From an uncultured Eubacteriales bacterium (lineage in GTDB: Bacteria > Bacillota > Clostridia > Oscillospirales > Acutalibacteraceae): a stretch of 64,000 nucleotides of DNA. The DNA is taken from positions 29,626-93,625 of the forward strand of contig ONFG01000007.1 in the NCBI GenBank assembly GCA_900317025.1. The letters run 5' to 3'. Position 1 is the first letter of the stretch. Each line of letters begins with the position of its first letter. The translations under genes and the position numbers were made by a program. Below the pieces are notes generated by a model, which was not told the origin of the DNA, did no database searches, and saw only the letters and a list, made by a program, of their open reading frames with translations. Positions 2,393 to 15,646 of the stretch are shown here, one piece after another.

Positions 2393-2436
2393 AAACGGCG
2401 CCCCGCAAGGTTTAAAAGCCCTGCGGGGTGCCGTTT
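2393..2436. terminator. Bidirectional terminator between convergent genes
   Basis: AAACGGCGCCCCGCAAGG pairs with CCCTGCGGGGTGCCGTTT around a short AT-rich loop. Runs of A on the left and T on the right let it serve both the deacetylase and the long leftward operon that ends at 2438. Confidence 0.75.
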
Positions 2437-2437
2437 A

Positions 2438-3121
2438 TCATATATTCTTTTGTAGAGAAAGAACGCCCTTATCCATTTTATAAACGAGGTCGGCGTATCT
2501 GAGCGCCTCGCGCTCGTGAGTTACGATAAGCACAGCTGCGCCGTCATCGGCGAGGCGTCGAAAAAGCTTCAGAACTTTCTGCGTCGTGTCATCGTCGAGG
2601 TCGCTCGTCGGCTCGTCGGCAATGATGACCTTGGGATCGTTTATCAGCGCGCGTGCGATAGCCATTCGGCGAAGCTCGCCGCCGGAAAGCTCGTTTGAGT
2701 AAACGTCGCACAGATCGTCGATTTCCATCTCGGAAAGCAGCTCATGAGCGCGCTTTTCCTTTGACGCAGCAGACCCGTACATTGCGGCGGGCATAAGCAC
2801 ATTTTCGAGGACGGTCAGGCTTTGAAGCCCCGTTTGCCCCTGCGGCACGACGCCGATGTGTTCGTTTCTGAGCTTCGAGCGTTCGGGGTCGCTTAAAGCA
2901 TAGATGTCGCGCCCGTCGAGCAGCACCCGCCCGCTTGTCGGGGCAAGCAGCCCGGCAAGCATATTTGAGAGCGTTGTTTTTCCGCTGCCGGAGCGCCCGA
3001 CAATCTCCGTAAGCTTCCCCGGCTCGAGCGAAAAGTCAGTCTCTTCGACGGCGCTAAAGAAGTTGGTGTTTTTGCCATTTCGGAAAAATATTCTCGAAAT
3101 ACTTTCTGCTGTAAGCTTCAT
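2438..3121 (-). CDS. ABC transporter ATP-binding protein (LolD/MacB type)
   Basis: Energises the FtsX-type permease encoded immediately upstream (3122-4330), with which it directly abuts. The 227-residue protein has Walker A GRSGSGKTT (about 42-50), Q-loop PQGQTG, signature LSGGE, Walker B VIIADEPTSDLDD and the switch His in VTHERE. It is the last gene of the leftward iron/redox operon, followed by a strong hairpin terminator. The pair ATPase + single MacB-like permease + DUF4418 also occurs in other Firmicutes near iron or FMN-binding genes, so a link to the iron system is plausible but inferred from position. The transported substrate is unknown. Confidence 0.85.
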   Translation of the reverse strand: MKLTAESISRIFFRNGKNTNFFSAVEETDFSLEPGKLTEIVGRSGSGKTTLSNMLAGLLAPTSGRVLLDGRDIYALSDPERSKLRNEHIGVVPQGQTGLQSLTVLENVLMPAAMYGSAASKEKRAHELLSEMEIDDLCDVYSNELSGGELRRMAIARALINDPKVIIADEPTSDLDDDTTQKVLKLFRRLADDGAAVLIVTHEREALRYADLVYKMDKGVLSLQKNI

Positions 3122-4330
3122 TTATGCGTCCTCCCTCAAAAGCAGCGCCGTTTCGCCGCGCGTTATCCTACAAGCCGAAACGCACGACGTCACAAGGCCC
3201 GAAAGCAGCGACAGCAGCAGCGCGCCCGCGCCCAGCAGCACGACGACTCCGGCGTCCGGAGTAAAAAACGGCAGCGAGAGCGACTCTTTGAGTGAATCCG
3301 TAAGCGGAGCTAAAACTCCTAGCGCACAGAGAAGCCCTGCTAACGCGCCGACAAGGCTCACCAGAGCCGATTCAAGCGCCATTATCGAGAAGAGCATCCC
3401 GCGAGAAGCGCCCATCACGCGAAGTACGGCGAATTCCTTTCTTCTTTCGTTGGATATGAGCGCGAAGGCCACCGCCATTATTACAACGGCAAGCACCCAG
3501 ATTACAGCCACCAGCGCACCGATCATCTTCGACACGCCCGACAGCCCCTCCGATATGCCGGAAATCATCGTTTTAGCGGGAGTAGCCTGGACCTTCGTAA
3601 CGTGGATGTTTATATCGTCCGTCACGGCTTCGATATCAAAGCCATCAGAAACCTTTATAAGCACGGCGGAGGCTGCCGTTTCGATGTCTATTCCCTTGAA
3701 CGGTTCGCCGTCGAGGATATTCGCGGCGTTCTCTGCCATTTTTTCGACGGTCGCCATATTGGTGTAGACGGCGCTGTCAAGCCCCGTTCCGGTTTTTCCT
3801 AACTGCGCCGCCACACGGTAGGATTCACCGTAAAATTTGATTATTCCGTCCGCCGGAAGGCTAACGTCGGCACCGATTATTATATCGCCGTCCTTGATCT
3901 CGCCGGAAAAGCTCTCGGATATCCACGACATGACGGAAAAGTCGGTTTCCGGATCGAAGCCGATTATCTGCACGCGCGACGAGCAGCAGCTCGCCTTCGC
4001 CGAGGTCAGAAAGAACTGCTTCGTCACCTTCTCGACGCCTTTTGTCGAAGCTATCTTCTTGACGTCTTTGCCCGACATATAGTATGTGCCGGTTATGCCT
4101 TGAAGAAGGATATCGTCGACCGTCCCGTGACCCTTTGCACTATTCGGAACGACTACGATATCGGCGCCGAGCCTCGCCTTGTATGCCGAAAGCCCCCTTT
4201 GCAGGCTCATCACGGTGAACGCTCCCGCAAAAATTGCAAACGAAAGCAGCGCCGCCAGAGCCGCCGTTGCAGCCGCGCGAAACGGCTTGCGGGCAATGTT
4301 CTTAAAGGGAAGCGAAAGCGCGGACTTCAT
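3122..4330 (-). CDS. ABC transporter permease, FtsX/MacB-like
   Basis: 402-residue permease: N-terminal TM helix (about 17-38), a large extracytoplasmic domain (about 40-260), and an FtsX domain with three TM helices in the C-terminal third. The start is ATG 4330, with GGGGGAGAAG just upstream; the ATG overlaps the DUF4418 stop as ATGA, indicating translational coupling. A longer open frame extends upstream to 4543 but its first 71 codons overlap the DUF4418 gene and look like low-quality, His/Arg-rich sequence. It works with the adjacent ATPase. In this operon it is the third FtsX-type permease, divergent in sequence from the two upstream ones. Confidence 0.85.
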   Translation of the reverse strand: MKSALSLPFKNIARKPFRAAATAALAALLSFAIFAGAFTVMSLQRGLSAYKARLGADIVVVPNSAKGHGTVDDILLQGITGTYYMSGKDVKKIASTKGVEKVTKQFFLTSAKASCCSSRVQIIGFDPETDFSVMSWISESFSGEIKDGDIIIGADVSLPADGIIKFYGESYRVAAQLGKTGTGLDSAVYTNMATVEKMAENAANILDGEPFKGIDIETAASAVLIKVSDGFDIEAVTDDINIHVTKVQATPAKTMISGISEGLSGVSKMIGALVAVIWVLAVVIMAVAFALISNERRKEFAVLRVMGASRGMLFSIMALESALVSLVGALAGLLCALGVLAPLTDSLKESLSLPFFTPDAGVVVLLGAGALLLSLLSGLVTSCVSACRITRGETALLLREDA

Positions 4331-4788
4331 CGCTTCTCCCCCTTGTCTGCGGGTACACGGCTGTGCTTTTCGTTTGAGGAGCTGGTCATATAGAGTACGA
4401 TGTCGGCTATTACGATCACCATCAGTGCGATCATGAAAATGATCGTCCAGAACTGGGAATGGCTGCGGCAGCTCATCTCCGCCATCTTGCAAAGGCTGAT
4501 GATGCGCCCGGGAATGCAGAACACAAATGCGTAAACGCCGCACAGCGAAATATCCATGCCGATCTTTATCTTTTCGTCGGCTATCGCCGCATGAGCCACC
4601 GACAATGTCAGCAGCACGACCGATACAGCTTTAAGCGCCTCGCCCGCCCAATGGCAGCTCATAAAGCCGCTTTCCATCGGCTCGCACACGGGGAACCACA
4701 AACGTATACCGAGCAGATATAAAAGCGAAACTGCAACTGTCAGAATATCGGTAATACCAAACCTTATCTTATCCTTATTGACTATCAT
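4327..4788 (-). CDS. DUF4418 family membrane protein
   Basis: 153 residues with four predicted TM helices (about 13-30, 50-70, 78-96, 112-134). It carries the two conserved cysteine patches I associate with DUF4418: FPVCEPMESGFMSCHWAGEA after TM1 and CKMAEMSCRS before the last helix. Function is unknown. The external Cys/His residues could bind metal, which would fit the iron operon it sits in; that is inference. RBS GGGAGAGAG precedes the ATG. The gene ends in a 4-bp overlap with the permease and starts 35 bp after frdB. Confidence 0.75.
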   Translation of the reverse strand: MIVNKDKIRFGITDILTVAVSLLYLLGIRLWFPVCEPMESGFMSCHWAGEALKAVSVVLLTLSVAHAAIADEKIKIGMDISLCGVYAFVFCIPGRIISLCKMAEMSCRSHSQFWTIIFMIALMVIVIADIVLYMTSSSNEKHSRVPADKGEKR

Positions 4789-4823
4789 TTCTTCTCTCTC
4801 CCTTTTTGCCGCTAAGCCTGCAG

Positions 4824-5522
4824 CTATTTTCTTTTCCAGATCGCCATGGCGTTTGCGTTTACGAGCAGGCGCTCTGTGTCAATGCCCTTCGGGCAGACAT
4901 CACGGCAGGCAAGCGATTTTCCGCAGCCCGCAAACGTGTGCCTTGCGTAAAGCCTCGCGATCTCTTTATACTCCTTCGGAGTCATCTGCGACAAGAGCCG
5001 CGTTGTGATCGGCACGGTCGCCATGCCGAAGAATTTTCCGCCTGCGCAAAAATTCGGGCAGATCTCCAGACAGCAGCCGCACTGAATACACTCCGAAGCT
5101 TCAAACGCAAGCTCTCCGTATTTTTCGCTAAACTCGGCGTTGCCCCCAAGCCACAGGCGCAGCGTTTTCAAGTTTTCAAACAGAACGCTCCTGTCGACCA
5201 CAAGGTCGCACACAACAGGGAATTTACGAAGCGGTTCGAGCGTTATCTCGCCCGTAAATTCCGACAAGACGGCGCCGCAGGCAAGGCGCGGTCTTCCGCA
5301 GATCACCATGGCGCACGCGCCGCACTTCTTTTGAAGGCAGCTGCACTCCCATTCGATGCGCCGCGCGGGGCTGCCGTCCGCGCTCACGAGGTCATCCTTT
5401 TCGTTGAGCTTAGTGAGCGCCGTGGCGACGGTGTCGCTCTCGTTCTCCGTTTCATACTCGAAGCGCTGGCAGAAGCTTTCTCCGCCGTGCTCCCGGCGGA
5501 GTATGTCAAGAATGTACTTCAT
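4824..5522 (-). CDS. frdB: Fumarate reductase/succinate dehydrogenase iron-sulfur subunit
   Basis: Electron-transfer subunit between the flavoprotein and the membrane anchor. The N-terminal 2Fe-2S ferredoxin domain (about 1-110) has CSCLQKKCGAC plus a later Cys in RLACGA; the C-terminal bacterial ferredoxin domain has CIQCGCCLEICP and CRDVCPKG for the 4Fe-4S and 3Fe-4S centres. Length 232 is normal for the family. The ATG at 5522 lies inside the end of frdA (17-bp overlap) with a purine-rich GAGGGGGCG upstream. The three subunits are ordered membrane anchor, flavoprotein, iron-sulfur protein. Whether it runs as quinol:fumarate reductase or feeds another acceptor is discussed under findings. 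Confidence 0.9.
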   Translation of the reverse strand: MKYILDILRREHGGESFCQRFEYETENESDTVATALTKLNEKDDLVSADGSPARRIEWECSCLQKKCGACAMVICGRPRLACGAVLSEFTGEITLEPLRKFPVVCDLVVDRSVLFENLKTLRLWLGGNAEFSEKYGELAFEASECIQCGCCLEICPNFCAGGKFFGMATVPITTRLLSQMTPKEYKEIARLYARHTFAGCGKSLACRDVCPKGIDTERLLVNANAMAIWKRK

Positions 5523-7104
5523 CTTTTAACGCCCCCTCGCCTCCGAACTTTTCAAATGTGATAACAGGTCTTCCGTTTTCAAGGCGCGCCACAGTCTGCC
5601 TTCTGAAGGCTTCGCTCGTCTTCGGGAAGTCTTTCCTGAAATGAGCGCCGCGGCTTTCCTCTCGAGCAAGCGCCGACTCGACTGCCGCAATTCCGACCGA
5701 CACCCTGAGCCTGTCAATCTTGCTTATCCCCTTTGCGCTGTACAGCGCTTCAAGGTCTGCAAGCGCCGCCTTCATCGTCTCGCCGCTTCGCACGATGCCG
5801 AGACCTCCAAGCAGCAGGTCGCGCAGCCGCGCTCTTATCTGCGGAGAAGAGACGCTGTCTTTATAATCGGGAACGGGCTTTACCTGAGAGCCTTCTGCAC
5901 TTTTCGACGCTGCCCTTGCCGCAGTCTCGCCGCCAAATACGGCGCCGAGCATCGAGTTCCCTCCGAGGCGGTTCGCCCCGTGGAACTTGCACGCCGCCTC
6001 TCCCGCCGCGAAAAGCCCCTTTATGTTCGTTTCAAAGCGGTCGTTTACGCGAATACCGCCCATGAAGAAGTGTATACCGGGGCTTACGGCAATCGGCTCT
6101 TTTTTCGGGTCCTGCTTTAAATATGAGATGATCTCCTTTCTCAGGTCGGAAAGCTTACCGCTCCAGACGTCCCCGCCGATCGTCGTCATGTCAAGGAAGA
6201 CGTCTCCCGTACATTCGGAGGCGTTTTTCACGAAGAACATCTCACGCGACACGACGTCGCGAGGCATCAGGCTGCCAAGCTCATATTTCTCCTCCATAAA
6301 ATACCACGGCTTGCCGTTTTTCATGATAAACAGCTTGCCGCCTTCGCCGCGCGCCGCCTCGCTTATGAGCATACGCTTGCCGCTGATGGCGACAGTCGTC
6401 GGGTGGTACTGGATAAATTCCAGGTTTGCAAGCTCCGCGCCCGCTCCGAAGGCGAGCGCCGCCGCATTGCCGGTGTTCTGCGTCGTGCCGGTCGTCATTC
6501 CCTCGAAGAAGCCGTTAAGCCCGCCGGTACAAAGAATCGTGCATCCGCCGAGCGACATGAACTCTCCGGTGTATAAATCCTTTACAAATATGCTTTGAAG
6601 CGTTTTTTCGTCCGTTTTTATATAGACAAGATCGTGGTGGGGGAAGCGCTCCACAAGCCCCTGCGCCTCGTATTTGCGCACCTCGTCGATCAGCGCCGTC
6701 ATTATCATCTTGCCGGTGCTGCTCTTTGCGTAAGCGGTGCGCTTCTTTTTCTGACCGCCGAAATTGCGCAGCGTGAGCCGCCCGTTTTCGTTTTGAAAGG
6801 GTGTACCAAGCCGAAACAGCTCCGTCACGACTCGCGGCGCGTTCTCCGTGAGTTCTTTTACCGCCGCTTCGGATTCAAGGAAGCAGCCGCCCTTCATCGT
6901 GTCGGAAAAGTGATCGGCTGGGTTATCGCTCTCGCCCATCGTGTCGAGCGCAGCGTTTATTCCGCCCTCTGCAAGGACCGACTGCGCCCGCTCAGACGGC
7001 TGAGACGAGACGAGCCTCGAATGTATCCCCATTCGCGAAAGCGTTATCGCGGCCGAAAGCCCCGAAAGTCCCGCTCCTACGATATTGACCGTTTTTTCGT
7101 TCAT
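5506..7104 (-). CDS. frdA: Fumarate reductase/succinate dehydrogenase flavoprotein subunit, lacking the covalent-FAD histidine
   Basis: 532 residues, start ATG 7104 with GGAGGGTGTT. Dinucleotide-binding motif VGAGLSGLSAA (about 8-19). Catalytic-site motifs resemble those of E. coli FrdA: EFIQYHPTT (substrate His), SEAARGEGG, PRDVVSREM (Arg), IHFFMGG (His) and HGANRLGGNSM (Arg). The position that carries the covalent 8-alpha-histidyl-FAD link (SHTVAAEGG in E. coli FrdA) reads AQSVLAEGG, with Gln41 in place of His, so FAD is probably bound non-covalently. Ten bases separate it from the membrane subunit gene and it overlaps frdB. L-aspartate oxidase and soluble fumarate reductases are relatives, but the dedicated FrdB and cytochrome-like partners favour a membrane FrdABC complex. 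Confidence 0.88.
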   Translation of the reverse strand: MNEKTVNIVGAGLSGLSAAITLSRMGIHSRLVSSQPSERAQSVLAEGGINAALDTMGESDNPADHFSDTMKGGCFLESEAAVKELTENAPRVVTELFRLGTPFQNENGRLTLRNFGGQKKKRTAYAKSSTGKMIMTALIDEVRKYEAQGLVERFPHHDLVYIKTDEKTLQSIFVKDLYTGEFMSLGGCTILCTGGLNGFFEGMTTGTTQNTGNAAALAFGAGAELANLEFIQYHPTTVAISGKRMLISEAARGEGGKLFIMKNGKPWYFMEEKYELGSLMPRDVVSREMFFVKNASECTGDVFLDMTTIGGDVWSGKLSDLRKEIISYLKQDPKKEPIAVSPGIHFFMGGIRVNDRFETNIKGLFAAGEAACKFHGANRLGGNSMLGAVFGGETAARAASKSAEGSQVKPVPDYKDSVSSPQIRARLRDLLLGGLGIVRSGETMKAALADLEALYSAKGISKIDRLRVSVGIAAVESALAREESRGAHFRKDFPKTSEAFRRQTVARLENGRPVITFEKFGGEGALKDEVHS

Positions 7105-7114
7105 AACACCCTCC

Positions 7115-7657
7115 TCAGACAGCCGCCCAGCGCGCATAATAGGCACCAAAGCCCACGCACGCAAGCAGCAGCACGACCGACAGCACAAACATCGCGTCGT
7201 GAGAGAAAGCCTTTGTGCTTTTGATTCCGAAGGATATCAGCATCGGCTCGATATTTGTCAGCACGTGAAACGCGATCGTCAGAACGAGCAGGATCTGAGA
7301 GACGAGCCGCCCCTGAGTAAACACCTGCAAGCGGACCGCGCCGCCCGACGTATCCGCCTGAAAAAGCAGAACGTGCATCACAAGCGGTATTATGAGTGCA
7401 AGGCCGCTTATGCGCCTTGCCCAGAAGATAAGATTATCCTTGAAATATGCCGCGCCGGAAACGCGCTGAACGTGCACCGTCTGAAATGTCAGCACAACTG
7501 AAACAGCTGCGTGGATCATCGCAAGCACTAAGCACGTCCATGCAGCAGCCTTCATCGCGCCGCTGTCTGCACCCAGCAGTTTAAGCGCCCCCGCAACGGC
7601 GTGAAGGACGAACGTCACAAGCATTCCCGCCGCCAAAAACATATTAAGCCTTCTCAT
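7115..7657 (-). CDS. Fumarate reductase/succinate dehydrogenase membrane anchor (cytochrome b type)
   Basis: 180 residues with five hydrophobic helices, fitting the single-subunit SdhC/FrdC diheme anchors. Histidines fall in or near helices: in VLHAVAG, IHAAVS, VMHVLLF and AFHVLTN, candidates for heme b ligands. ATG 7657 is preferred because GGAGGT sits seven bases upstream; an in-frame GTG at 7666 lies within that ribosome binding site. It overlaps the preceding small gene by 14 bp and is followed 10 bp later by frdA. It should anchor FrdAB to the membrane and pass electrons from menaquinol; the heme count is inferred from His positions only. Confidence 0.75.
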   Translation of the reverse strand: MRRLNMFLAAGMLVTFVLHAVAGALKLLGADSGAMKAAAWTCLVLAMIHAAVSVVLTFQTVHVQRVSGAAYFKDNLIFWARRISGLALIIPLVMHVLLFQADTSGGAVRLQVFTQGRLVSQILLVLTIAFHVLTNIEPMLISFGIKSTKAFSHDAMFVLSVVLLLACVGFGAYYARWAAV

Positions 7658-8150
7658 CGGCTGCACCTCCGGTTATCTCGATTACCGAAACGTTCTCCGC
7701 TTTGTCAGGCGAAAGTTTTATCGCCTGCTCCATCTCCTTGGAAAATATGGCAGCGTCGATCAAGCCCGACTCAGCCTTCGATGCGAGAAGCGCCGCGTCT
7801 TCGCTGCGAACGGTCATCTGGTTTTCGGGAAGCTGAGCTTTGTAGCGCTCTGCAAGCTGCATTCCGGCTTCGTCGCCGTTTGCGACGGTGCAGTGGATAT
7901 CGTCGAAGATAACGGCATACTCGTCGCCCAGAAACGATTTCCAGTCGTCGATCGTATCTTCATGGAGCGAAGCGTTTATCAGGACAATGTATTCGCCCGA
8001 AGGCTGCTCGGGAAGCTCCATTGTCGCCTGAGACACCGCGTCAACCTTTTCGCCGAAGAAGTCAAGCTTCAGGGCAAGCGGCACTCCGACGATCAGGACC
8101 GCTGAAAGCATCGAAAGCGTTATGTGAAAAAGCCTCTGCGGGATATGCAT
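7644..8150 (-). CDS. Unknown protein with one N-terminal TM helix, between the FMN-binding lipoprotein and Frd genes
   Basis: I do not recognise this family. The 168-residue product has a short basic N-terminus, one TM helix (about 8-28) and an extracytoplasmic soluble domain. One part, from EYIVLINASLHEDTIDDW to EDIHC-like FDDIHCTVA, reads like an alternating beta/alpha fold; there is one lone Cys. ATG 8150 is chosen over ATG 8156 because GGGAGGG is seven bases from the former and only one from the latter. It overlaps the cytochrome b gene by 14 bp, so its synthesis is probably coupled to the Frd complex. A role as an accessory or electron-relay partner is a guess from position. Confidence 0.6.
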   Translation of the reverse strand: MHIPQRLFHITLSMLSAVLIVGVPLALKLDFFGEKVDAVSQATMELPEQPSGEYIVLINASLHEDTIDDWKSFLGDEYAVIFDDIHCTVANGDEAGMQLAERYKAQLPENQMTVRSEDAALLASKAESGLIDAAIFSKEMEQAIKLSPDKAENVSVIEITGGAADEKA

Positions 8151-8168
8151 TGTCATTCCCTCCCGGAA

Positions 8169-8606
8169 TTATTCTGCCGAGGCCTTGGCTAGGGCATCGC
8201 CGACCGCCTCTTTGAATTCATCGTAGTTTACGGTTGCGCCGCTTATCGCATCGACGCCCTCAAGCGTGCCGGCGCTCACGTACATCTCGGCGTACTTGTC
8301 GGCAGCCTGTACCGCCTTCTGAGCCTTCATGCGGTTCTCCTTTGTGAGATCGACGCCGTAGTTTTCACCTTTAAGTGTACCGTCAAGCTCATACGTTTTG
8401 AATGTGCAGGATATAATCTTGTTGTCCTTCACTTCAAGCTCGACCTCGCCGTAGCCTGCGCCGTTGCCGTCTTCGTCGGCGTTTCTGTCTGCACTCCGTC
8501 CGGTGTAGGTGCCGTCGTTGAGCTGCGAAGGCACTGACACTTCGCCGCACGCTGCGAACGACAAAAGCAGCACGCACGCTGCGATAACGGATATGATCTT
8601 TTTCAT
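8169..8606 (-). CDS. FMN-binding domain lipoprotein
   Basis: 145 residues. Lipoprotein signal peptide with lipobox LSFAAC (Cys about 20), then one FMN_bind domain ending in VDAISGATVNYDEF. In this family the Thr of the SGAT motif is the site to which ApbE-type flavin transferases attach FMN through a phosphoester, giving a surface redox carrier as in NqrC/RnfG and Listeria PplA. The start ATG overlaps the stop of the upstream ATPase gene by 4 bp (ATGA). In the C. jejuni and E. coli Fet iron loci a thioredoxin-like protein often follows the ABC genes; here an FMN carrier takes that place. No ApbE gene is in the window, so the transferase would be encoded elsewhere. Confidence 0.85.
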   Translation of the reverse strand: MKKIISVIAACVLLLSFAACGEVSVPSQLNDGTYTGRSADRNADEDGNGAGYGEVELEVKDNKIISCTFKTYELDGTLKGENYGVDLTKENRMKAQKAVQAADKYAEMYVSAGTLEGVDAISGATVNYDEFKEAVGDALAKASAE

Positions 8607-9304
8607 GGCGTATCTCTCCTTTTTATTTTTTCGGAAAACAACTCGTTTTTCTTGTCGGAAACGATCTTACCGTGGTCGAGACGGACGATGCGCTGCGCCT
8701 GTTCGCCGACCTCGGGGTCGTGAGTTACGACTACAAGACTCGTACCCTCCTTGTGGAGCTGCTTAAAGATGTCGAGCACGATGTTTTCGTTTGCCTCGTC
8801 GAGGTTGCCGGTCGGCTCGTCGGCGAGTATAAGCTCGGGCGAATTGATAAGAGCGCGCGCGATGCAGACTCGCTGCTGCTCGCCGCCCGAAAGCTGGCTC
8901 GGCAGGTGCTTTGCCCTTTCTTTAAGCCCCACTCTTTCGAGAGCCGCGAGAGCCTCCTTTTCGTCGGGCATACTGTGGTAATACTGCGCTACCATGACGT
9001 TTTCCACTGCGTTAAGATAGTTTATCAGATGGAACTGCTGGAAGACAAGCCCGATCCTGTCGCGGTGGAATTCCGTAAGCTTACGGCGGCTCTCCTTGGA
9101 GATATCCTTGCCGTCAAAAATCACCTGACCCGACGACGGCTTATCCATGCAGCCGATTATGTTCATCATCGTACTTTTGCCCGAGCCTGACGGACCCATT
9201 ATGGCGATCCACTCGCCCTTGTCCACGCTAAGGCTGACGTTGTCGAGCGCGTGAAGGTCGCCGTAGACCTTTGATATATTTTTCAATTCAAGTACCTTGC
9301 TCAT
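8603..9304 (-). CDS. ABC transporter ATP-binding protein of the iron locus
   Basis: 233 residues, LolD/MacB-type ATPase. Walker [10 protein letters not shown] (about 39-47), Q-loop VFQQFHL, signature LSGGEQQR, Walker [14 protein letters not shown] and switch His in VVTHDPE. It lies 22 bp downstream of one FtsX-type permease and just after the second, so the likely complex is two different permeases with this ATPase. The gene set corresponds to the ATPase and two permeases of the C. jejuni Cj1658-1665 and E. coli FetMP-FetABCDEF loci, which act together with an FTR1-like permease and P19. The cargo or mechanical role in those systems is not settled. Confidence 0.9.
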
Positions 9305-9326
9305 TTGTATTCTCCTTCAAAAGTCG

Positions 9327-10532
9327 TTACTCGCCTTTAAGCACGATAGCCGGGTCGACGTCGACCGCGCTCTTAATCGGCACGAGGCACGCTAGACCCG
9401 TCACAAGAACGGATGCGGCTATCGTTATCGGTATAAGAAGCGGGCGGAATGCGATCGAGCTGCCAAAGACGTTCATGCTGACGATCTGGGCGAAGTAGTA
9501 GCCCAACACCGAACCAAGTATGCCGCCGAAGCCGCCGAGCACAAGACACTCGCTCATGAATTCGGCGATGATGCTGCCGTTGAGCGCGCCGAGCGCCTTG
9601 CGAAGGGCGATCTCACGGCGGCGCTCCGTTATAACGGCTGTCATCGTCGTTGCAACGCAGATCATCGTGAGCACGAGCACAACGGCTGTCACAATGAAGA
9701 CAAGCGACTGCAGCTTTGTAAGTACGGTGCTTTCGGAAGCAGTAACGCGCTTTACAAGCTTCGCCGAAACGCTTTCCGAGCTTTCGTTTATCCTCTCGAC
9801 CGCCTCCGTCAGACGCTCCTGCATCGCTGCCGCGCTGACCTCTACGATATCGCACCCCCTGTCGCTGAGCGTCAGGCTCTCGGCGTCTTCAAGGGAGATG
9901 TATATGTAATCCTCCTCCGAGCCGCCCGTTTCTAGAATTCCCGCAACGGTGAGATCAAGGCTGTGGTCGCAGTACATCTCTCCCGTTTCGGGGTCGCTGT
10001 ACATCTCATATGAGGGGATATCGGCGGTATTGATATCGCTCGTGACCTCAAAGGTGTTTACCGCCGAGAACGAGTCGCCCTCTTTAACGCCGAGGCTTTC
10101 CGCCGCCTTTGCGCCCACGAGCGCCTGCCCGCTGCTTTTCGGAAGGCTGCCAACAATGTGCCAGTAGGGGCTTGTTTTCAAAACGGAGTCAAAGTCCACG
10201 CCCGCAAGCGTCTGGGGCTGATTGTGAATCTGAGTGTTTTCGTAGCGGTACGGCGTATAGCCCTCAAGCTCTTCGTCCGTAAACTCTGCAACGCATTTTT
10301 CAAGCTCCCCGCGGTTGATGTATCCGTCACCGGAAGGGGTGAGAATAACGTTTGCGCCGTAGCTCCTGAACTGCGCGCTCATCTGGCGTGGAACGTCGTA
10401 ATATATCATTTCAAGTCCGGAAAGGATTGTTGCGCCGACAACGACGGCGAGCAGCGCGACTATCATTCTCGAGCGTCTTCGCAGAAGCGACGCCATGACC
10501 ATCCAGACAAACATTTTATGCTTTGTGTTCAT
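9327..10532 (-). CDS. FtsX-type ABC permease 2 of the iron locus
   Basis: 401 residues: N-terminal TM helix (about 18-40), extracytoplasmic domain (about 45-270) and C-terminal FtsX domain with three TM helices (about 280-395), including the typical ITERRREIALRKALGA loop. ATG 10532 has AAGGGAG about seven bases upstream. It lies 12 bp after the other permease gene and 22 bp before the ATPase gene. Together they look like a heteromeric MacB-like transporter. The external domain is acidic but has no Cys-rich metal site that I can see. Confidence 0.85.
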   Translation of the reverse strand: MNTKHKMFVWMVMASLLRRRSRMIVALLAVVVGATILSGLEMIYYDVPRQMSAQFRSYGANVILTPSGDGYINRGELEKCVAEFTDEELEGYTPYRYENTQIHNQPQTLAGVDFDSVLKTSPYWHIVGSLPKSSGQALVGAKAAESLGVKEGDSFSAVNTFEVTSDINTADIPSYEMYSDPETGEMYCDHSLDLTVAGILETGGSEEDYIYISLEDAESLTLSDRGCDIVEVSAAAMQERLTEAVERINESSESVSAKLVKRVTASESTVLTKLQSLVFIVTAVVLVLTMICVATTMTAVITERRREIALRKALGALNGSIIAEFMSECLVLGGFGGILGSVLGYYFAQIVSMNVFGSSIAFRPLLIPITIAASVLVTGLACLVPIKSAVDVDPAIVLKGE

Positions 10533-10544
10533 TTATGATCTCCC

Positions 10545-11843
10545 TTAATGCCCGCCGTGGAGGACCTCCGACGGACGAAGTCTGAGCAGTATTCTGATCG
10601 CCGGGATACTACCGACGAGCGTTACGCCGATTATCAGCACAACGACGATAAACGCTACCATGCCGTTCATGTCGATCGACGACGAGAAGACCGACCTGCC
10701 GATTATCTGCGCAAAGCCACAACCCATGAAGTAGCCCGCAGCCGCGCCGATCATCGAGGTGATCGTGATCTCGGTCAGCACAAGCAGCGTTACCTGACCG
10801 TTTGTCGCGCCAACGGCCTTTAAAAGTGCAAGCTCGCTCGAGCGCTCCATAACGCCAGAGGTGACAAGGTTCGAGATGCCGAGCGTTGCGCCGATAAGGC
10901 TCATGAATGTGATAAGCGTCATTAGAAGCTGCGTCTTTTCGAGTATTTTGCCCTCGGAGTCGGCTATCTGGCGAACGGCAGACGCCGAAGCCTCCGGGAT
11001 AGCCTCCTGTATCTGGAAGCAGATAGAGCTTACGTAAGCCGTGCAGTACCAGAGGTCGTATTCATCGCCCGAAAGCAGCGAGGGGTTTCTCGCCGCCTTT
11101 ACGGCAAGCTCATCATCGGGCGAGGTTATGGCGCTGACCTCGACCTTTTTCACAAGCTCGTTCTCACCGGAAAGGCGCTGCTGCGCCGAAAGCGTTGTGT
11201 AAACGCGGGAATCGTCGTCGTCGCCCGACTCGAATATCCCGGTAACGGTGAGCTTCTCTTCACTTTTTTTGCCCTCGACGGTGATCGTGTCGCCGGCGCG
11301 GATACCCTTATCCTTTGCGAGAGCCGAGCCAACCATAGCGAATGCGTCGCCGTCAAGCTTCTGCTCGTCGAGCCACTCCCCCTCTTCGATGTCCCACCAG
11401 CTTCTGAGGTTTGTAACGCCGGTGTCGCGCTCATAGGTCGTACCTTTTTTTGTAAACTCAAGGCGGTGGCCGAACCATGAGCCGATAAGAGTTACTTCGC
11501 TGCCGTCAAGCATGACGGTACTGTCGTTTACGGGCGCAAAATCGGTGATGTTGTTCGCCCAGAAGATCGTAAGCAGCTCGCCGAGCTTATCCTGCGGGAT
11601 GTAGTCCGTTTCTCCCGAGTCGTCTTCGACGTTGTAAAGCTTGTCGATAACTGCCTGTGACTTCGCCGTGACCGTTATATTAGAGCCGTAAGTTTTCAGC
11701 TCCTCATTTATCTTGTCGCCGACATCGAGCATCACGTTAAGCATCGCCGCCGCGATGGACGCTCCGAGAGCTACCGTTACCGCGATCATGAGCAGCTTTT
11801 TCCATTGGCGGGTAAACGTTCCCCTCAACATTCTGAAAAACAC
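10545..11843 (-). CDS. FtsX-type ABC permease 1 of the iron locus
   Basis: 432 residues with the same topology as its neighbour: TM helix at about 14-36, an external domain, then three C-terminal TM helices with the loop VMERSSELALLKAVGATNG. The start is GTG 11843, five to eight bases after GGGGGCGG; the next in-frame ATG is at 11831 but would be too far from that site. The external domain contains a short GSWFGHRLEF segment that I recall from the homologous permeases of P19-linked loci. It follows the DUF2318 gene by 13 bp. Confidence 0.83.
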   Translation of the reverse strand: MFFRMLRGTFTRQWKKLLMIAVTVALGASIAAAMLNVMLDVGDKINEELKTYGSNITVTAKSQAVIDKLYNVEDDSGETDYIPQDKLGELLTIFWANNITDFAPVNDSTVMLDGSEVTLIGSWFGHRLEFTKKGTTYERDTGVTNLRSWWDIEEGEWLDEQKLDGDAFAMVGSALAKDKGIRAGDTITVEGKKSEEKLTVTGIFESGDDDDSRVYTTLSAQQRLSGENELVKKVEVSAITSPDDELAVKAARNPSLLSGDEYDLWYCTAYVSSICFQIQEAIPEASASAVRQIADSEGKILEKTQLLMTLITFMSLIGATLGISNLVTSGVMERSSELALLKAVGATNGQVTLLVLTEITITSMIGAAAGYFMGCGFAQIIGRSVFSSSIDMNGMVAFIVVVLIIGVTLVGSIPAIRILLRLRPSEVLHGGH

Positions 11844-11856
11844 ATTTTCCGCCCCC

Positions 11857-13152
11857 TTACTTCTTAAAGTGATTCTTGTTTTTTATCATCTCGTCTATCG
11901 GGATCGTGATCCCGTTTTCGTCGATATCGTAATCAATGATGATCGGGTTGCATCCGCCCTTCATGCCAATTGTCGTCTTGTTCATCACAACGTTGCACTT
12001 TTTGCAGACGATCTGATTGTCCTTGTTCTCGTAGTAGCCCGCCTCGCCGCAGATGTCGCAGGCGTCAAGCCCTACGCCGTAGTTGTTTGTATTCTCCTGC
12101 TTTAGCACAACGATGAAACGCACAAGCGTGCCGTCGTCGGTCGTGTAGCCGAAGCGGTGAAGGTGACCGTCTTCTACCGTTTCAAGAGGTACGAAGAGCG
12201 TGTCGCTTTCCGTTATCGGGTCTTCGACGGGCGCCTCCTTTATCTCTACCGTGTTGAGCTTTACAAAGAGCGTCGAGCAGAGAATCGCCATAACAAAGCC
12301 GATAAGAAGGAAGACGAAGCTGCGCTTTGCCGTGCGCCACACAGCCTTTTGCTTTCGGTGCTCGGCGTTCGTGGAGTACGGCTCCTTAGCGGTGCGGCTC
12401 TTGACGATCAGGAACACGCCGACCGCCGTTATGACGGCAAAGAGCCCGTATGTGTAGAAACTCGAGCGGTTGTTGCTTGCCGCGGCAAAGCTGAACAGCA
12501 CTTCGCTGTCAACGATCTTTCTCGGAGTGAGAACGAGCATTAGCCTTGCAAAGCCGTAGACTGCGTAGAGAACATTCACTGCGTAAAACACAGCGCAAAG
12601 CAGCTTCGTAAAGCCTTTCTTTGCAGCCACCGTGCAGATCTTGCAAACGGCGATCGCCGACACAAGGCATACAAGCAGACCAAGCAGATAACCGCCGAGG
12701 CGGAAAAGATACTCAGTTGACAAGATTCCGCTGGCTCCGCTGTCAAACTTGAACGGGTAGATCATTACGTTCGGCGCGGTGCAGTAGATATAAGACGCCA
12801 TGAGCAGACCGGTCGAAGCCGAAACTATGATCTCGCCCGCCGACTCAAACCGCTTGGAGTTTGTCCTGTGGAAAAAACCTTTTGCAAAGATTACAAATAG
12901 CACCGCCGTTAAAACGAAGAGTGCAAGCGAAATGCCGTAGCCCCACGCACCGACCTTCCAGCCTCCCGTCAAGCGGCGAGTATTCGTGATGTATGTACGT
13001 ACACCGGCGACGATAAGCCCCAATGTGATCCCGCAGCGGAATATTACCTTGCCCCTGTCGGAGCAAAAGCGGTCGATAAAAGCAAGCATTACGCCAAGGA
13101 TCAGAGAAACAGCGAGGATATCGCCCGTGACGTTGATAAGATATGTAAGCAT
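11857..13152 (-). CDS. DUF2318 (Fe-S-containing-like) polytopic membrane protein
   Basis: 431 residues. The N-terminal two-thirds has about eight TM helices, and the C-terminal domain (about 320-431) carries CDICGEAGYY and CKKCNVVMN plus a Cys in KGGCNPI, the metal/redox-site pattern of DUF2318. Family members sit next to FTR1 and P19 genes in many bacteria (Cj1660 in C. jejuni), where they are thought to help iron handling or reduction at the outer face of the membrane. ATG 13152 is preferred over ATG 13170 because GGGTGAA lies before it and nothing resembling a ribosome binding site precedes the other. The Cys-rich domain should be extracytoplasmic. Confidence 0.82.
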   Translation of the reverse strand: MLTYLINVTGDILAVSLILGVMLAFIDRFCSDRGKVIFRCGITLGLIVAGVRTYITNTRRLTGGWKVGAWGYGISLALFVLTAVLFVIFAKGFFHRTNSKRFESAGEIIVSASTGLLMASYIYCTAPNVMIYPFKFDSGASGILSTEYLFRLGGYLLGLLVCLVSAIAVCKICTVAAKKGFTKLLCAVFYAVNVLYAVYGFARLMLVLTPRKIVDSEVLFSFAAASNNRSSFYTYGLFAVITAVGVFLIVKSRTAKEPYSTNAEHRKQKAVWRTAKRSFVFLLIGFVMAILCSTLFVKLNTVEIKEAPVEDPITESDTLFVPLETVEDGHLHRFGYTTDDGTLVRFIVVLKQENTNNYGVGLDACDICGEAGYYENKDNQIVCKKCNVVMNKTTIGMKGGCNPIIIDYDIDENGITIPIDEMIKNKNHFKK

Positions 13153-13199
13153 TATTTCACCCTGTTGCATATTTTAGGTTTTGGGGCTAAAGCCGCCGA

Positions 13200-13248
13200 T
13201 AGCTCCGGCGCAGGCGGCAAAAAAAACGCCGCTGCAAACCGGAGCTTC
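13200..13248 (-). other. Strong intercistronic stem-loop between the P19 and DUF2318 genes
   Basis: AGCTCCGG (13201-13208) pairs with CCGGAGCT (13239-13246), and inside it GCAGGCGGC pairs with GCCGCTGC around an A-rich loop. There is no U-run after it in the direction of transcription, so it is more likely an mRNA-stabilising or processing hairpin at the 3' side of the P19 message than a full terminator. It sits in the only long gap inside the operon. Confidence 0.55.
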
Positions 13249-13290
13249 TCGTGCCAAGGCCCCGTAAACCCCGGCAATATTATTTATAGA

Positions 13291-13980
13291 TTACTCGGCC
13301 CAAGCGCCGTCTGTGAACTGCCACTTGTCGTAAGTGTACTCGATAGCATCGGGGAACTCGTGAGTTTCCGGGCCTGTTTCGTCTGTGTGGATAAGGTATG
13401 TTGAGGAATCGGGGAACTTAACGGTAAACTTGACCGTGTAAAGTCCGTCGCCTGCCATCTTGATGTTCGCGCCGTAGTGCGGACCGTCGGAAGCTGCCAT
13501 CGGCATGAATGTGCCTTCGCTGACCTTGGAGTTGTCATCGTTCTTTGTTACTTCGTAGTTGACTGTGAGGTACGGAACCCAGTCGCCCGTGCCGTAGCCG
13601 AGACCGTTCTGAAGAGCGGAAACGTCAAGCTCGAGGTGGCAGTCGTAATCCTCTGCCTTGTAGCCGCCGGTCATGTCAACAGGCTGGAAGTATACTGCGT
13701 TGAGGTTGAGGAATTCCTTCTCAACGCCCGAGAAGATCTCGACCTCTGTGAAACCGAGGTCCTCGCCGTCGTCCGCTTCTTCTCCGGCAGCGCTCTCTGC
13801 TGCGCTCTCTGCTGCGCTCTCTGCTGCGCTCTCTTCAGCCGCGGACTCTACAGCTGCTGCAGACGATGTGTCGTCTGCCGTGCTGCTTGTTGTTGTGGAA
13901 GCCGTATCGCAGGCTGCCATGCTTACGGAAAGCATCATAGCTGCAAGTGCAGCCGCAATGATCTTGCTGTACTTCTTCAT
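13291..13980 (-). CDS. P19/FetP-type iron-transport lipoprotein
   Basis: 229 residues, start ATG 13980 after GGAGGAG. Lipoprotein signal with lipobox VSMAAC (Cys about 24), then a Ser/Thr/Ala linker with a 12-bp DNA repeat encoding AESA units, then the P19 (Iron_transport) domain, about 80-229. Metal-site residues of C. jejuni P19 appear kept: the HLE of CHLELDVSA (His and Glu ligands), and Met and His in MPMAASDGPHYG. Near the end is another His-rich patch, HTDETGPETHEFP. It should capture ferric/cupric-type ions outside the membrane and hand iron to FTR1, encoded 85 bp upstream. The Gram-positive protein is lipid-anchored instead of periplasmic. Confidence 0.88.
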   Translation of the reverse strand: MKKYSKIIAAALAAMMLSVSMAACDTASTTTSSTADDTSSAAAVESAAEESAAESAAESAAESAAGEEADDGEDLGFTEVEIFSGVEKEFLNLNAVYFQPVDMTGGYKAEDYDCHLELDVSALQNGLGYGTGDWVPYLTVNYEVTKNDDNSKVSEGTFMPMAASDGPHYGANIKMAGDGLYTVKFTVKFPDSSTYLIHTDETGPETHEFPDAIEYTYDKWQFTDGAWAE

Positions 13981-14065
13981 TATATTCTCCTCCAAAACTA
14001 ATTGATATATAGTGTGTATTGTCAACAAACCGATCTATACGGGTCAGATCGGAGTATTGCGGGGA

Positions 14066-15469
14066 TCAGTCTGCCTTCAGGGTTTTCTTGCCTTCGGGCT
14101 TCTTCACGATCGTAAGAACGAAGGTGATGATCGTGATAACAGTGAGTATGAGCTGCGGTGCGAGCGTTATCCATGTCGGGTAGATGCCGAAGAACGCAAG
14201 CGCGTCGTTGCCTGACATCCACGAAAGCGCCGGTATCGTGCCGGCAAGACTCTGAACAAAGCCGCCGATCTTCTCGGCAAGACCGCCGTCGAGGAAAAGC
14301 TCCCACATACCGGAGCCGAGGAACGCGATCGACATTACCGCCATCAATATACTTGTCGCCATAAAGAACGGCTTCAGCGGAAGCTTCACACCGAACACGC
14401 GGATAAGTACGAAGATAAGCGCTACCACCGCAAGTCCGAGGACGATGCCGCCGAACACAGCGAGGAAGCCGTGTTCCATCGAGCCTGCCCTTGAAAAATA
14501 CTGCTGGCAGAAAAGGATCACCTCGGCGCCCTCGCGGAACACAGCGAGGAACGACGTTGCGCCAAGCGCGATGAGCTTGCCGCTGTCGGCAGAGCTTGAG
14601 ACCTTGCCGGAAATGTAGCTTGTCCATGCGTCGGACTCCGCCTTTGAGATCATCCAGTTGGAAACGTAGATCAAAACGGCCACGGCAAGCAGTGCCGTAA
14701 CGCCCTCCGTTATCTCCTGCGGTATCGAGTTGCTCGTGCCGCTCGTTATCGTGTAGAGTACTATCGCAAGCGCCACGCTCGCTGCAAGTGCGACGACAGC
14801 GCCGGCATATACGTAAACGGTACCCTTTTTGTTTTCGGTCTTGATGAGGTATGCGACCATCGCGCCAACGATGAGTATCGCCTCGAGGCCTTCACGCAGG
14901 ATAATACCGAAGACTGCCGCAAACGTCGCCCAGGCAAGACCGCCACCGGAGCTTTCCTCGCCGTCCTCGTTGGTATATCCAAAAAGGGCGTCGAGCGTGT
15001 CTGCGTCTTCGCGGAGCATCGAAACGAGCTTGTCGACCTCGCTTCTCACCTCTTCGGGGCTTGCGCCGTTGTTGACCGCTTTCTTCATGTTTGAGAACTG
15101 AAGCTCTACCTCGTTGACTCGCGCGCCCGAGATGTAACCCATAACGGTCTTTTCATAGCCCGAGGTCTCGTACCAGAAGCCGTAAGCATTTGTAAACGGC
15201 TTGTAATAGCCGTCGTCGCCCTCTCTCTCAGTTCCCGACTCGTAGCGCCTCAAGCCCTCTTCGAGCAAATTTGAGATCTGGTCGGTGATGTCGTTGTACG
15301 TTATCGTTTTTGTACCGTCGGGGTTCTCGGCGGCGACGTACTTTTTGTACGATAGGTAATAGTCCGCCGCGGCGTCGCCGTCTGCATACGCCGTGAGCGC
15401 CGACATACCCGCAAAAACAATCAGAAGAAGCAGCGCCGAAAGCAGCCTCCTCATCGTTCTTTTCTGCAT
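14066..15469 (-). CDS. FTR1 family iron permease
   Basis: 467 residues. Signal peptide (about 1-31), an N-terminal external domain rich in charged residues (about 32-150), then about seven TM helices. Both REXXE iron-binding motifs of FTR1 are present: REGLE in ILREGLEAILIVG and REGAE in VFREGAEVILF. It imports iron, ferric in the yeast paradigm and of uncertain valence in FetM/EfeU-like systems. ATG 15469 with GGGGAGG ten bases upstream is chosen; an earlier TTG at 15505 has no ribosome binding site. First gene of the 14-gene leftward operon. Confidence 0.9.
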   Translation of the reverse strand: MQKRTMRRLLSALLLLIVFAGMSALTAYADGDAAADYYLSYKKYVAAENPDGTKTITYNDITDQISNLLEEGLRRYESGTEREGDDGYYKPFTNAYGFWYETSGYEKTVMGYISGARVNEVELQFSNMKKAVNNGASPEEVRSEVDKLVSMLREDADTLDALFGYTNEDGEESSGGGLAWATFAAVFGIILREGLEAILIVGAMVAYLIKTENKKGTVYVYAGAVVALAASVALAIVLYTITSGTSNSIPQEITEGVTALLAVAVLIYVSNWMISKAESDAWTSYISGKVSSSADSGKLIALGATSFLAVFREGAEVILFCQQYFSRAGSMEHGFLAVFGGIVLGLAVVALIFVLIRVFGVKLPLKPFFMATSILMAVMSIAFLGSGMWELFLDGGLAEKIGGFVQSLAGTIPALSWMSGNDALAFFGIYPTWITLAPQLILTVITIITFVLTIVKKPEGKKTLKAD

Positions 15470-15593
15470 ATTATGATGACCTCCCCTTATCTTTGATACG
15501 AACAAGCAGGTTCTGGGTTATAAACATCTAACCTCCGCCCTAAAAAAAAGCCCTGCCTACATATCACAGGAAATTGTAGTCGCATTGTGACGC

Positions 15594-15609
15594 GTTAGAG
15601 GATTCTAAC
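15594..15609. promoter_or_regulatory. Palindromic operator candidate at the start site of the iron operon
   Basis: GTTAGAGGATTCTAAC is a perfect inverted repeat with 6-bp arms and a 4-bp centre. It lies immediately downstream of the predicted transcription start, where a repressor would block the promoter. The flank TTAG..CTAA recalls DtxR/IdeR-type sites but does not fit that consensus fully, and it is not a good Fur box. The regulator is therefore left open. Confidence 0.5.
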
Positions 15610-15617
15610 TATCTTTA

Positions 15618-15646
15618 AGTTTATCACAGCTAACTTGTTTTGTCAA
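15618..15646 (-). promoter_or_regulatory. Sigma-A promoter of the iron/redox operon
   Basis: TTGACA (15646-15641) and TAAACT (15623-15618), 17 bp apart on the minus strand. The predicted start is near 15611, leaving a leader of about 140 bases before the FTR1 gene. The leader contains a short CTACA/TGTAG hairpin followed by a U-rich stretch (about 15542-15580) that could act in attenuation; that part is weak. Confidence 0.7.

Follow-up and report, generated by a model that had tools for sequence, protein, structure and literature searches.

A P19-type iron-uptake operon containing a fumarate reductase-like gene block, a candidate electron relay, in an uncultured Acutalibacteraceae bacterium

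The window analysed here is a 64,000-nucleotide stretch of contig ONFG01000007.1 (assembly GCA_900317025.1, positions 29,626 to 93,625 of the forward strand) from an uncultured Eubacteriales bacterium of the Acutalibacteraceae, and its subject is an iron-uptake operon that includes genes for a complex II-like electron chain. By means of open reading frame (ORF) and Pfam analysis, 14 genes were delimited, all on the minus strand and extending from 15469 to 2438, in the order FTR1, P19, FetA, FetB, FetC, FetD, FMN_bind lipoprotein, X170, FrdC, FrdA, FrdB, DUF4418, FtsX permease and ATPase (Table 1). A first-pass annotation made from the letters alone had recognized a FetMP-FetABCD-type iron operon in the front half, which the Pfam families and the gene order bore out. 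The sequence features expected of a P19/Fet cluster were found, namely an FTR1 with RExxE motifs beside P19 (PF10634), then, in the expected order, a DUF2318 protein with CxxC..CxxC..C, a pair of FtsX permeases and an ATPase, and a flavin mononucleotide (FMN)-binding lipoprotein in the seventh place.

Table 1. Features of the operon and of its flanks, in window coordinates
Feature	Coordinates	Strand	Evidence and remarks
FTR1/FetM iron permease, REGLE and REGAE motifs	14066..15469	-	PF03239, E 6.9e-32; likely ATG 15469
P19/FetP iron-binding lipoprotein	13291..13980	-	PF10634, E 3.7e-42; likely ATG 13980
FetA, DUF2318/FtrD-like membrane protein, CxxC-x14-CxxC-x14-C	11857..13170	-	PF10080, E 3.4e-27; alternative ATG 13152
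FetB, FtsX-type permease	10545..11843	-	PF02687, PF12704
FetC, FtsX-type permease	9327..10532	-	PF02687, PF12704
FetD, ATP-binding cassette (ABC) ATPase	8603..9304	-	PF00005
FMN_bind lipoprotein, flavinylation-type motif DAISGAT	8169..8606	-	PF04205, E 1.1e-6, over cut-off
X170, 170 residues, one transmembrane (TM) helix	7644..8156	-	8 homologues, each encoded between the FMN gene and FrdC
FrdC, five-helix membrane subunit, heme-b anchor type	7115..7657	-	four invariant His (22, 52, 98, 134)
FrdA flavoprotein	5506..7104	-	PF00890 (FAD_binding_2), E 2e-70, and Succ_DH_flav_C; PDB alignments
FrdB iron-sulfur subunit	4824..5522	-	PF13085 (Fer2_3), PF13183 (Fer4); 1kf6_B, E 2e-25
DUF4418 membrane protein, two Cys pairs	4327..4788	-	PF14387, E 4.6e-21
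Second FtsX-type permease	3122..4330	-	PF02687
Second ABC ATPase, LolD-like	2438..3121	-	PF00005; TIGR02211 below cut-off
Terminator-like hairpin closing the operon	2401..2428	-	10 pairs, 8 GC, T tail; directly after the last gene
Promoter-like match TTGACA-17-TAAACT	15618..15646	-	weak taken alone
Palindromic operator-like site GTTAGAATCCTCTAAC	15594..15609	.	on the downstream side of the promoter match, 9 bp from its -10-like hexamer

When the likely start codons were assumed, 11 of the 13 junctions measured between -17 and +35 bp, in line with the annotated gaps of mostly less than 40 bp, and the wider ones were FTR1-P19 (85 bp) and P19-FetA (138 bp, or 120 bp with the alternative FetA start). 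A terminator-like hairpin (15852-15818) lies directly ahead of the operon, another closes it, and the gene downstream is convergent. The shared strand, the short junctions and the flanking hairpins suggest that the 14 genes are transcribed as one unit, as the first-pass annotation had expected. That annotation had also claimed a consensus promoter at the front and a strong terminator at the end; the hairpin held up, and the promoter-like match was weak on its own, because 13 such matches occurred in 16 kb versus 7.9 (standard deviation 2.9) in shuffled sequence. The match gains credibility from the operator-like palindrome placed just behind it.

This palindrome was derived by comparing upstream regions and conforms to GTTAGN6CTAAC, of which the window's genome holds two exact sites, compared with none of a control pattern; no further exact site was found within the window. 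The second one (G000, contig C18, 38314-38329; L055 from 1515) precedes a DUF2325-DUF3793-flavodoxin set, which suggests an iron-starvation regulon, and since the only two exact sites of the genome precede this set and the operon, the latter is likely to be one iron-controlled unit. Similarly, sites in G230 precede feoB, DUF3793-flavodoxin genes and the gene of a DtxR-family repressor (PF01325 and PF02742) located directly ahead of FTR1, and DUF3793 genes also stand beside such sites in G043, G248, G326 and G388. Seven genomes together contained 66 exact sites versus 15 of the control pattern, and the surroundings of about 35 of the 66 were inspected; the excess was nil or slight in G388 (4 versus 3) and G326 (4 versus 4), and G051 accounted for 28 versus 6. 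Of the six complete Frd-bearing loci, five had an exact TTAGN6CTAA core at the head of the operon, placed ahead of DUF4418 in L007 and ahead of the repressor gene in L018. A Fur box upstream of the window's FTR1 was considered and rejected (best match 9 of 14 positions), and a DtxR box was matched at 13 of 18.

The iron half of the operon is of a known kind. A single order of the first six genes, FTR1-P19-FetA-FetB-FetC-FetD, has been described from 33 species, where the seventh gene codes for a thioredoxin in most Proteobacteria and, in Firmicutes and other groups, for an FMN-binding protein (PMC6083913), and P19-associated flavinylated clusters, according to the main text of PMC8238504, number 260 and are mostly Gram-positive. 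The annotated replacement of the thioredoxin by an FMN_bind protein proved correct and, having been published for Gram-positive P19 clusters in both of these sources, could not be retained as the novelty of the locus. Within this half, the five Cys of FetA were kept in 12 of 12 sequences, and the FMN lipoprotein carries both a lipobox-like N-terminus and an FMN_bind domain with the [ST]GA[ST] motif, whose extended form [DE]x[IV][ST]GA[ST] was preserved in 13 of 13 homologues. At the other end of the operon, the annotated DUF4418 gene and second ABC pair are present and equally devoid of novelty: they were found in seven of eight P19 loci lacking Frd genes (L006 and L033-L038; not seen in L029), for which reason they were also discarded as the sign of a merged second operon. 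Cys35, Cys45 and Cys107 of DUF4418 were conserved in 12 of 12 sequences and Cys100 in 11 of 12. The Cys pairs, in the window and in relatives, sit in loops between hydrophobic stretches, a layout that resembles DsbB, and the protein may be a thiol redox partner; it occurred in most clostridial P19 operons of this comparison. As far as found, the new part is the X170-FrdCAB block, the iron half and the FMN protein being already known, and the literature search, which extended to PMC8238504 without its supplementary tables, returned no report of a P19 cluster combined with a fumarate reductase.

The three Frd genes code for what appears to be a complete chain of the complex II type. FrdA aligned with the Wolinella and E. 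coli fumarate reductases, and its dicarboxylate site (His262, Ser276/Glu277, Arg310, His373 and Arg407, numbered on the ORF 5506-7188) was kept in nine of nine homologues, position 276 being Ser in eight and Thr in one. In all nine sequences, the His that binds flavin adenine dinucleotide (FAD) covalently was replaced by Gln69. In FrdABCD, the covalent bond is stated to raise the FAD potential from -145 to -55 mV, and complex II variants deprived of covalent FAD retained fumarate reduction and lost succinate oxidation (PMC5773532). FrdA is not classed here as a succinate dehydrogenase, because the covalent-FAD His is missing, and by its residues it looks like a one-way fumarate reductase. FrdB preserves in nine of nine homologues the 11 Cys for the 2Fe-2S, 4Fe-4S and 3Fe-4S clusters. 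The four His of FrdC were also kept in nine of nine homologues, one in each of helices 1-4, as in diheme type B anchors such as that of Wolinella, and two b-type hemes are accordingly predicted. The electron wire, consisting of the FAD site, the 11 cluster Cys and the four heme-type His, thus seems intact as judged from the residues.

The assignment of FrdC was less direct, since the window's protein matched no Pfam family, and Sdh_cyt matched three of nine FrdC members at E<=1, the best reaching 22.7 bits against a cut-off of 25.8. The AlphaFold model (mean predicted local distance difference test score, pLDDT, 78) had as best Foldseek match the complex II cytochrome b subunit 9lay_C with a weak E of 0.04, and the further matches 2bs3_C and 1qlb_C (E 0.6-0.8) ranked behind an unrelated helical domain, 1r0d. 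An ordinary metabolic fumarate reductase was considered for the complex and rejected: the only other full-length PF00890 protein of the window's genome was NadB (NF004820 over cut-off, gene beside nadC), and two congeners lacking P19 also lacked FrdC, which supports this rejection.

X170, the fourth component of the block, is composed of a TM helix, followed by a [DE]AV[ST]xA[ST] motif and then by a lobe that looks like one half of a solute-binding protein; His65 and Cys89 are invariant. The AlphaFold model had a mean pLDDT of 74, falling below 50 at residues 31-45, which hold the motif, and its best Foldseek match was 3noh (E 2e-6). Sequence searches were uninformative: the window's X170 matched no Pfam family, the best PDB hit was chance-like (E 0.37) and the best PHROGs hit had E 0.1. 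The protein was tried as an FMN_bind protein and dismissed, for no member matched any Pfam family over a cut-off, the best matches below it being DUF6921 (L020, E 2.8e-4) and Toprim_2 (L010, 0.005). The motif [DE]AV[ST]xA[ST] was found in eight of eight members; flavinylation of X170 would be a guess, because the canonical attachment motif [ST]GA[ST] occurred in only two of the eight.

In the context of related genomes, P19 itself proved to be infrequent: with the window's genome counted each time, it was detected in 3 of the 200 family genomes, 6 of the 394 genomes of the taxonomic order and 7 of the 391 genomes in the class sample. Thirteen P19 loci were compared (the window, G043, G051, G230, G248, G326, G388, G587, G743, G763, G866, G883 and G917), G412 being omitted for its P19 fragment at a contig end. 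The X170-FrdC-FrdA-FrdB block was present in five of them (window, G043, G230, G248 and G388), all within the taxonomic order of the window and distributed over three families (f1, f8 and f26). Among the 394 genomes of this order, strong FrdC matches occurred in five, P19 in six and both in four, where the genes were adjacent; after removal of the window's genome, the figures were four, five and three of 393 (hypergeometric P 4e-6). Moreover, three contigs reached through FrdC (L008-L010), from metagenome-assembled genomes of uncultured Ruminococcus sp. (two) and an uncultured Clostridiales bacterium (one), all held iron genes, two of them being cut by the contig edge; they were left out of the fraction of P19 loci with Frd on account of the way they were found. 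FrdC thereby adjoined iron genes in seven of the eight genomes or contigs with a strong match. In the phylum sample, a strong FrdC was found only in the window's genome and weak matches in 4 of 397; none of these four was taken as a member, nor were the weak matches of G526 and G329, whose neighbourhoods showed none of the operon's iron genes. Since the block is found again in relatives, next to the same iron genes, the association exceeds chance, and the link between iron genes and Frd genes proposed by the first-pass annotation is real. The outcome which that annotation had named as a refutation, homologous iron loci of related genomes that always lack the Frd block, did not occur.

The architecture of the loci was also conserved. 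The block stands between the FMN gene and DUF4418 in the window, L008, L009, L010, L018, L019 and L020, and the entire 14-gene order was identical in the window, L009, L018, L019 and L020. In L007, DUF4418 and the second ABC pair come first, and the Frd block follows the FMN gene as the last part of the operon; a transglutaminase-core protein (PF01841) is encoded at 4318-5202 of this locus, between the second ABC pair and FTR1, and a similar gene in G248 (contig C124, L060) has its end next to an operator site. For the six complete loci, separate trees of the iron part, the Frd part and the DUF4418-ABC part were concordant at the well-supported splits (89-100%), the branching within L007/L019/L020 varying between part trees with low support, and the pairwise identities of the Frd proteins and X170 correlated with those of the iron core (r 0.81-0.92). 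Although L018 (G230) and L019 (G248) share one genus, each of the 14 L018 proteins was nearer to its counterpart in the window than to that in L019. The simplest reading of these sequences is that the operon was passed on as a whole unit. Such a history could be taken for hitch-hiking, in which a single insertion placed the Frd block between the FMN gene and DUF4418, after which it spread with the operon while playing no role in iron uptake. The block was indeed seen only in the taxonomic order of the window, being absent from all six P19 loci examined outside it (five of them from one family), and one genome has ApbE in its place (L006). However, X170 and FrdA have diverged to 35-60% and 53-65% identity among the six complete loci, across three families and with congruent trees, and all cofactor residues were nevertheless kept, so we hold a passenger role to be very unlikely.

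The question of the electron partner was approached in ten genomes, comprising the five with the block, two with P19 and no block, G517 and two congeners without P19. UbiA was over cut-off in none of the ten, with one match below it in G388, and controls were positive in 14 of 14; therefore, no home-made quinone is expected. The first-pass annotation had suggested that quinol electrons reduce iron at the membrane, an idea now poorly supported in view of this result and of the missing covalent-FAD His. Its alternative, merely co-induced fumarate reduction, was weakened and keeps some standing in the form of a quinol:fumarate reductase that works on quinone scavenged from neighbours and is simply co-regulated with iron uptake. 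The gut bacterium Faecalibacterium KLE1255 offers a precedent, since it has no quinone synthesis genes and shows evidence of fumarate reductase; E. coli mutants devoid of menaquinone genes ceased to help its growth, and the purified quinones tested failed too (PMC5738691). In the same direction, G517 possesses a solitary FrdCAB of the same family and has no P19 match. The placement of FrdC beside iron genes in all but one of its strong occurrences argues against this explanation, as does the paradox that an iron-rich enzyme (nominally 9 Fe plus two hemes) under an iron-starvation operator would be hard to explain unless it served uptake. We consider scavenging a serious rival, albeit an unlikely one. 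The solitary FrdCAB of G517 (L021) also lacks the covalent-FAD His, and several FMN_bind repeats and ApbE are encoded on the same contig.

From these observations, it is likely that FrdCAB and X170 form an electron relay of the iron system that is not fed by home-made quinone. P19, FetA/DUF2318, X170 and the FMN lipoprotein would manage iron and electrons outside the membrane, FrdC would carry electrons across it on two b-type hemes, and FrdB and FrdA would link these hemes to the succinate/fumarate couple inside. As to path and direction, we infer that the surface flavin takes an electron from Fe(II) or another external donor, that this electron passes along FrdC-FrdB-FrdA to fumarate and that FTR1 receives Fe(III), with fumarate replacing the oxygen of oxidase-coupled FTR1 systems. 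Two points favour inward flow: FrdA has the look of a fumarate reductase that works in one direction only, and in other systems the FTR1 permease is handed Fe(III) by an oxidase. The whole proposal, a P19/FetMP-FetABCD variant with its own complex II-like relay, inward flow and fumarate as acceptor, is offered tentatively, at slightly less than an even chance. Its sharpest version, an anaerobic quinone-free ferroxidase-permease in which the flavin oxidizes surface Fe(II), the FrdC hemes lead to a cytosolic fumarate sink and Fe(III) enters by FTR1, must be called doubtful.

The same genes could run in the opposite sense, with succinate or another cytosolic donor feeding FrdA-FrdB-FrdC and the surface flavin so that Fe(III) is reduced before uptake, which corresponds to the idea of the first-pass annotation without the quinol. 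The evidence of gene co-occurrence and conservation is identical for both directions, the membrane potential would favour outward electrons, and published P19 models suggest a reduction step (PMC6083913, PMC8238504). Nevertheless, the covalent-FAD His is missing from all nine FrdA sequences, and such complex II variants cannot oxidize succinate (PMC5773532), which makes outward flow rather improbable in our estimation. Work on the Fet system of C. jejuni leaves room for both directions as well: FetE/F have been suggested to be possible oxidases in vivo, yet the model depicts them as relaying reducing power; in that species fetM, P, A, B, C and D are important for growth, and FetE/FetF are redundant (PMC10783030).

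Several observations weigh against the relay with inward flow. Electrons moving inward oppose the membrane potential, so a low-potential iron site or an external donor is needed, and the published leaning is to reduction, as noted above. Between FrdC and the complex II anchors, homology is weak. The block is dispensable for basic uptake, since eight of the 13 P19 loci lack it (six of these from outside the taxonomic order, five of them from one family), and the G517 complex, in whose genome no P19 match was found, can therefore serve something else, the family not being tied to iron alone; the quinone may, moreover, be scavenged. Flavin attachment raises a further difficulty: ApbE and RnfD/E-type proteins were each found in nine of the ten genomes, ApbE in all four other whole genomes with the Frd block, and both congeners have ApbE, RnfD/E and RnfG-like FMN_bind proteins, whereas the window's genome (92% complete) yielded no ApbE, no RnfD/E, no RnfG-like protein and no FMN_bind protein besides that of the operon. 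This may reflect a real loss or an assembly gap; covalent flavinylation is disfavoured in this organism because ApbE and RNF were not found, and covalent FMN is unsupported there. Regarding iron control, L020 has one-mismatch sites only, no exact site was found in the 400 bp scanned in L034, L035, L037 and L038, which lack Frd, and some sites precede genes with no obvious iron link, such as that of an SLH-domain protein in G230.

Upstream of the operon, the window also encodes a large type I pullulanase-like protein (17258-21991) with a CBM26 starch-binding module and a C-terminal dockerin.

The locus is of interest for the driving force and the direction of the redox step in P19/FTR1 systems. 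In the published P19 clusters, in the descriptions available, a small protein acts as the electron partner, and where its own electrons come from or go to is left undefined; here, a whole putative transmembrane electron chain stands in the operon of gut bacteria that apparently make no quinone, which renders both the partner and the direction directly testable. A real relay would mean that a complex II homologue works with extracytosolic flavins and iron instead of home-made quinone; if the ferroxidase version is true, this homologue would have exchanged the quinone pool for a role in metal transport, and fumarate would play the part of oxygen or peroxide in Fet3-Ftr1 and EfeUOB.

Compared with known systems, the operon shares with the Campylobacter FetMP-FetABCDEF/P19 system the first six genes and their order, the DUF2318 Cys motif and a redox protein in the seventh place (PMC6083913, PMC10783030), and differs from it in having an FMN lipoprotein as this redox protein and in the additional X170-FrdCAB and DUF4418-FtsX-ATPase genes. 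The P19-associated flavinylated clusters, as described in the main text of PMC8238504, likewise contain FMN_bind with [ST]GA[ST], and the operon departs from those descriptions by including the FrdCAB system. The one-anchor diheme type B quinol:fumarate reductase, represented by Wolinella FrdCAB, has the same FrdA catalytic residues and FrdB cluster Cys and a similar anchor of five helices, the four His being spread over helices 1-4; in contrast, the window's FrdA lacks the covalent-FAD His, its anchor falls under the Pfam Sdh_cyt cut-off, the host genomes have no UbiA over cut-off, and the complex is joined to an extracytosolic flavin and iron genes. Finally, the oxidase-coupled FTR1 systems, yeast Fet3-Ftr1 and bacterial EfeUOB, present the same FTR1 with two RExxE motifs beside redox proteins, whereas the operon carries no copper oxidase or peroxidase and has a putative FMN-heme-FeS-FAD chain in their place.

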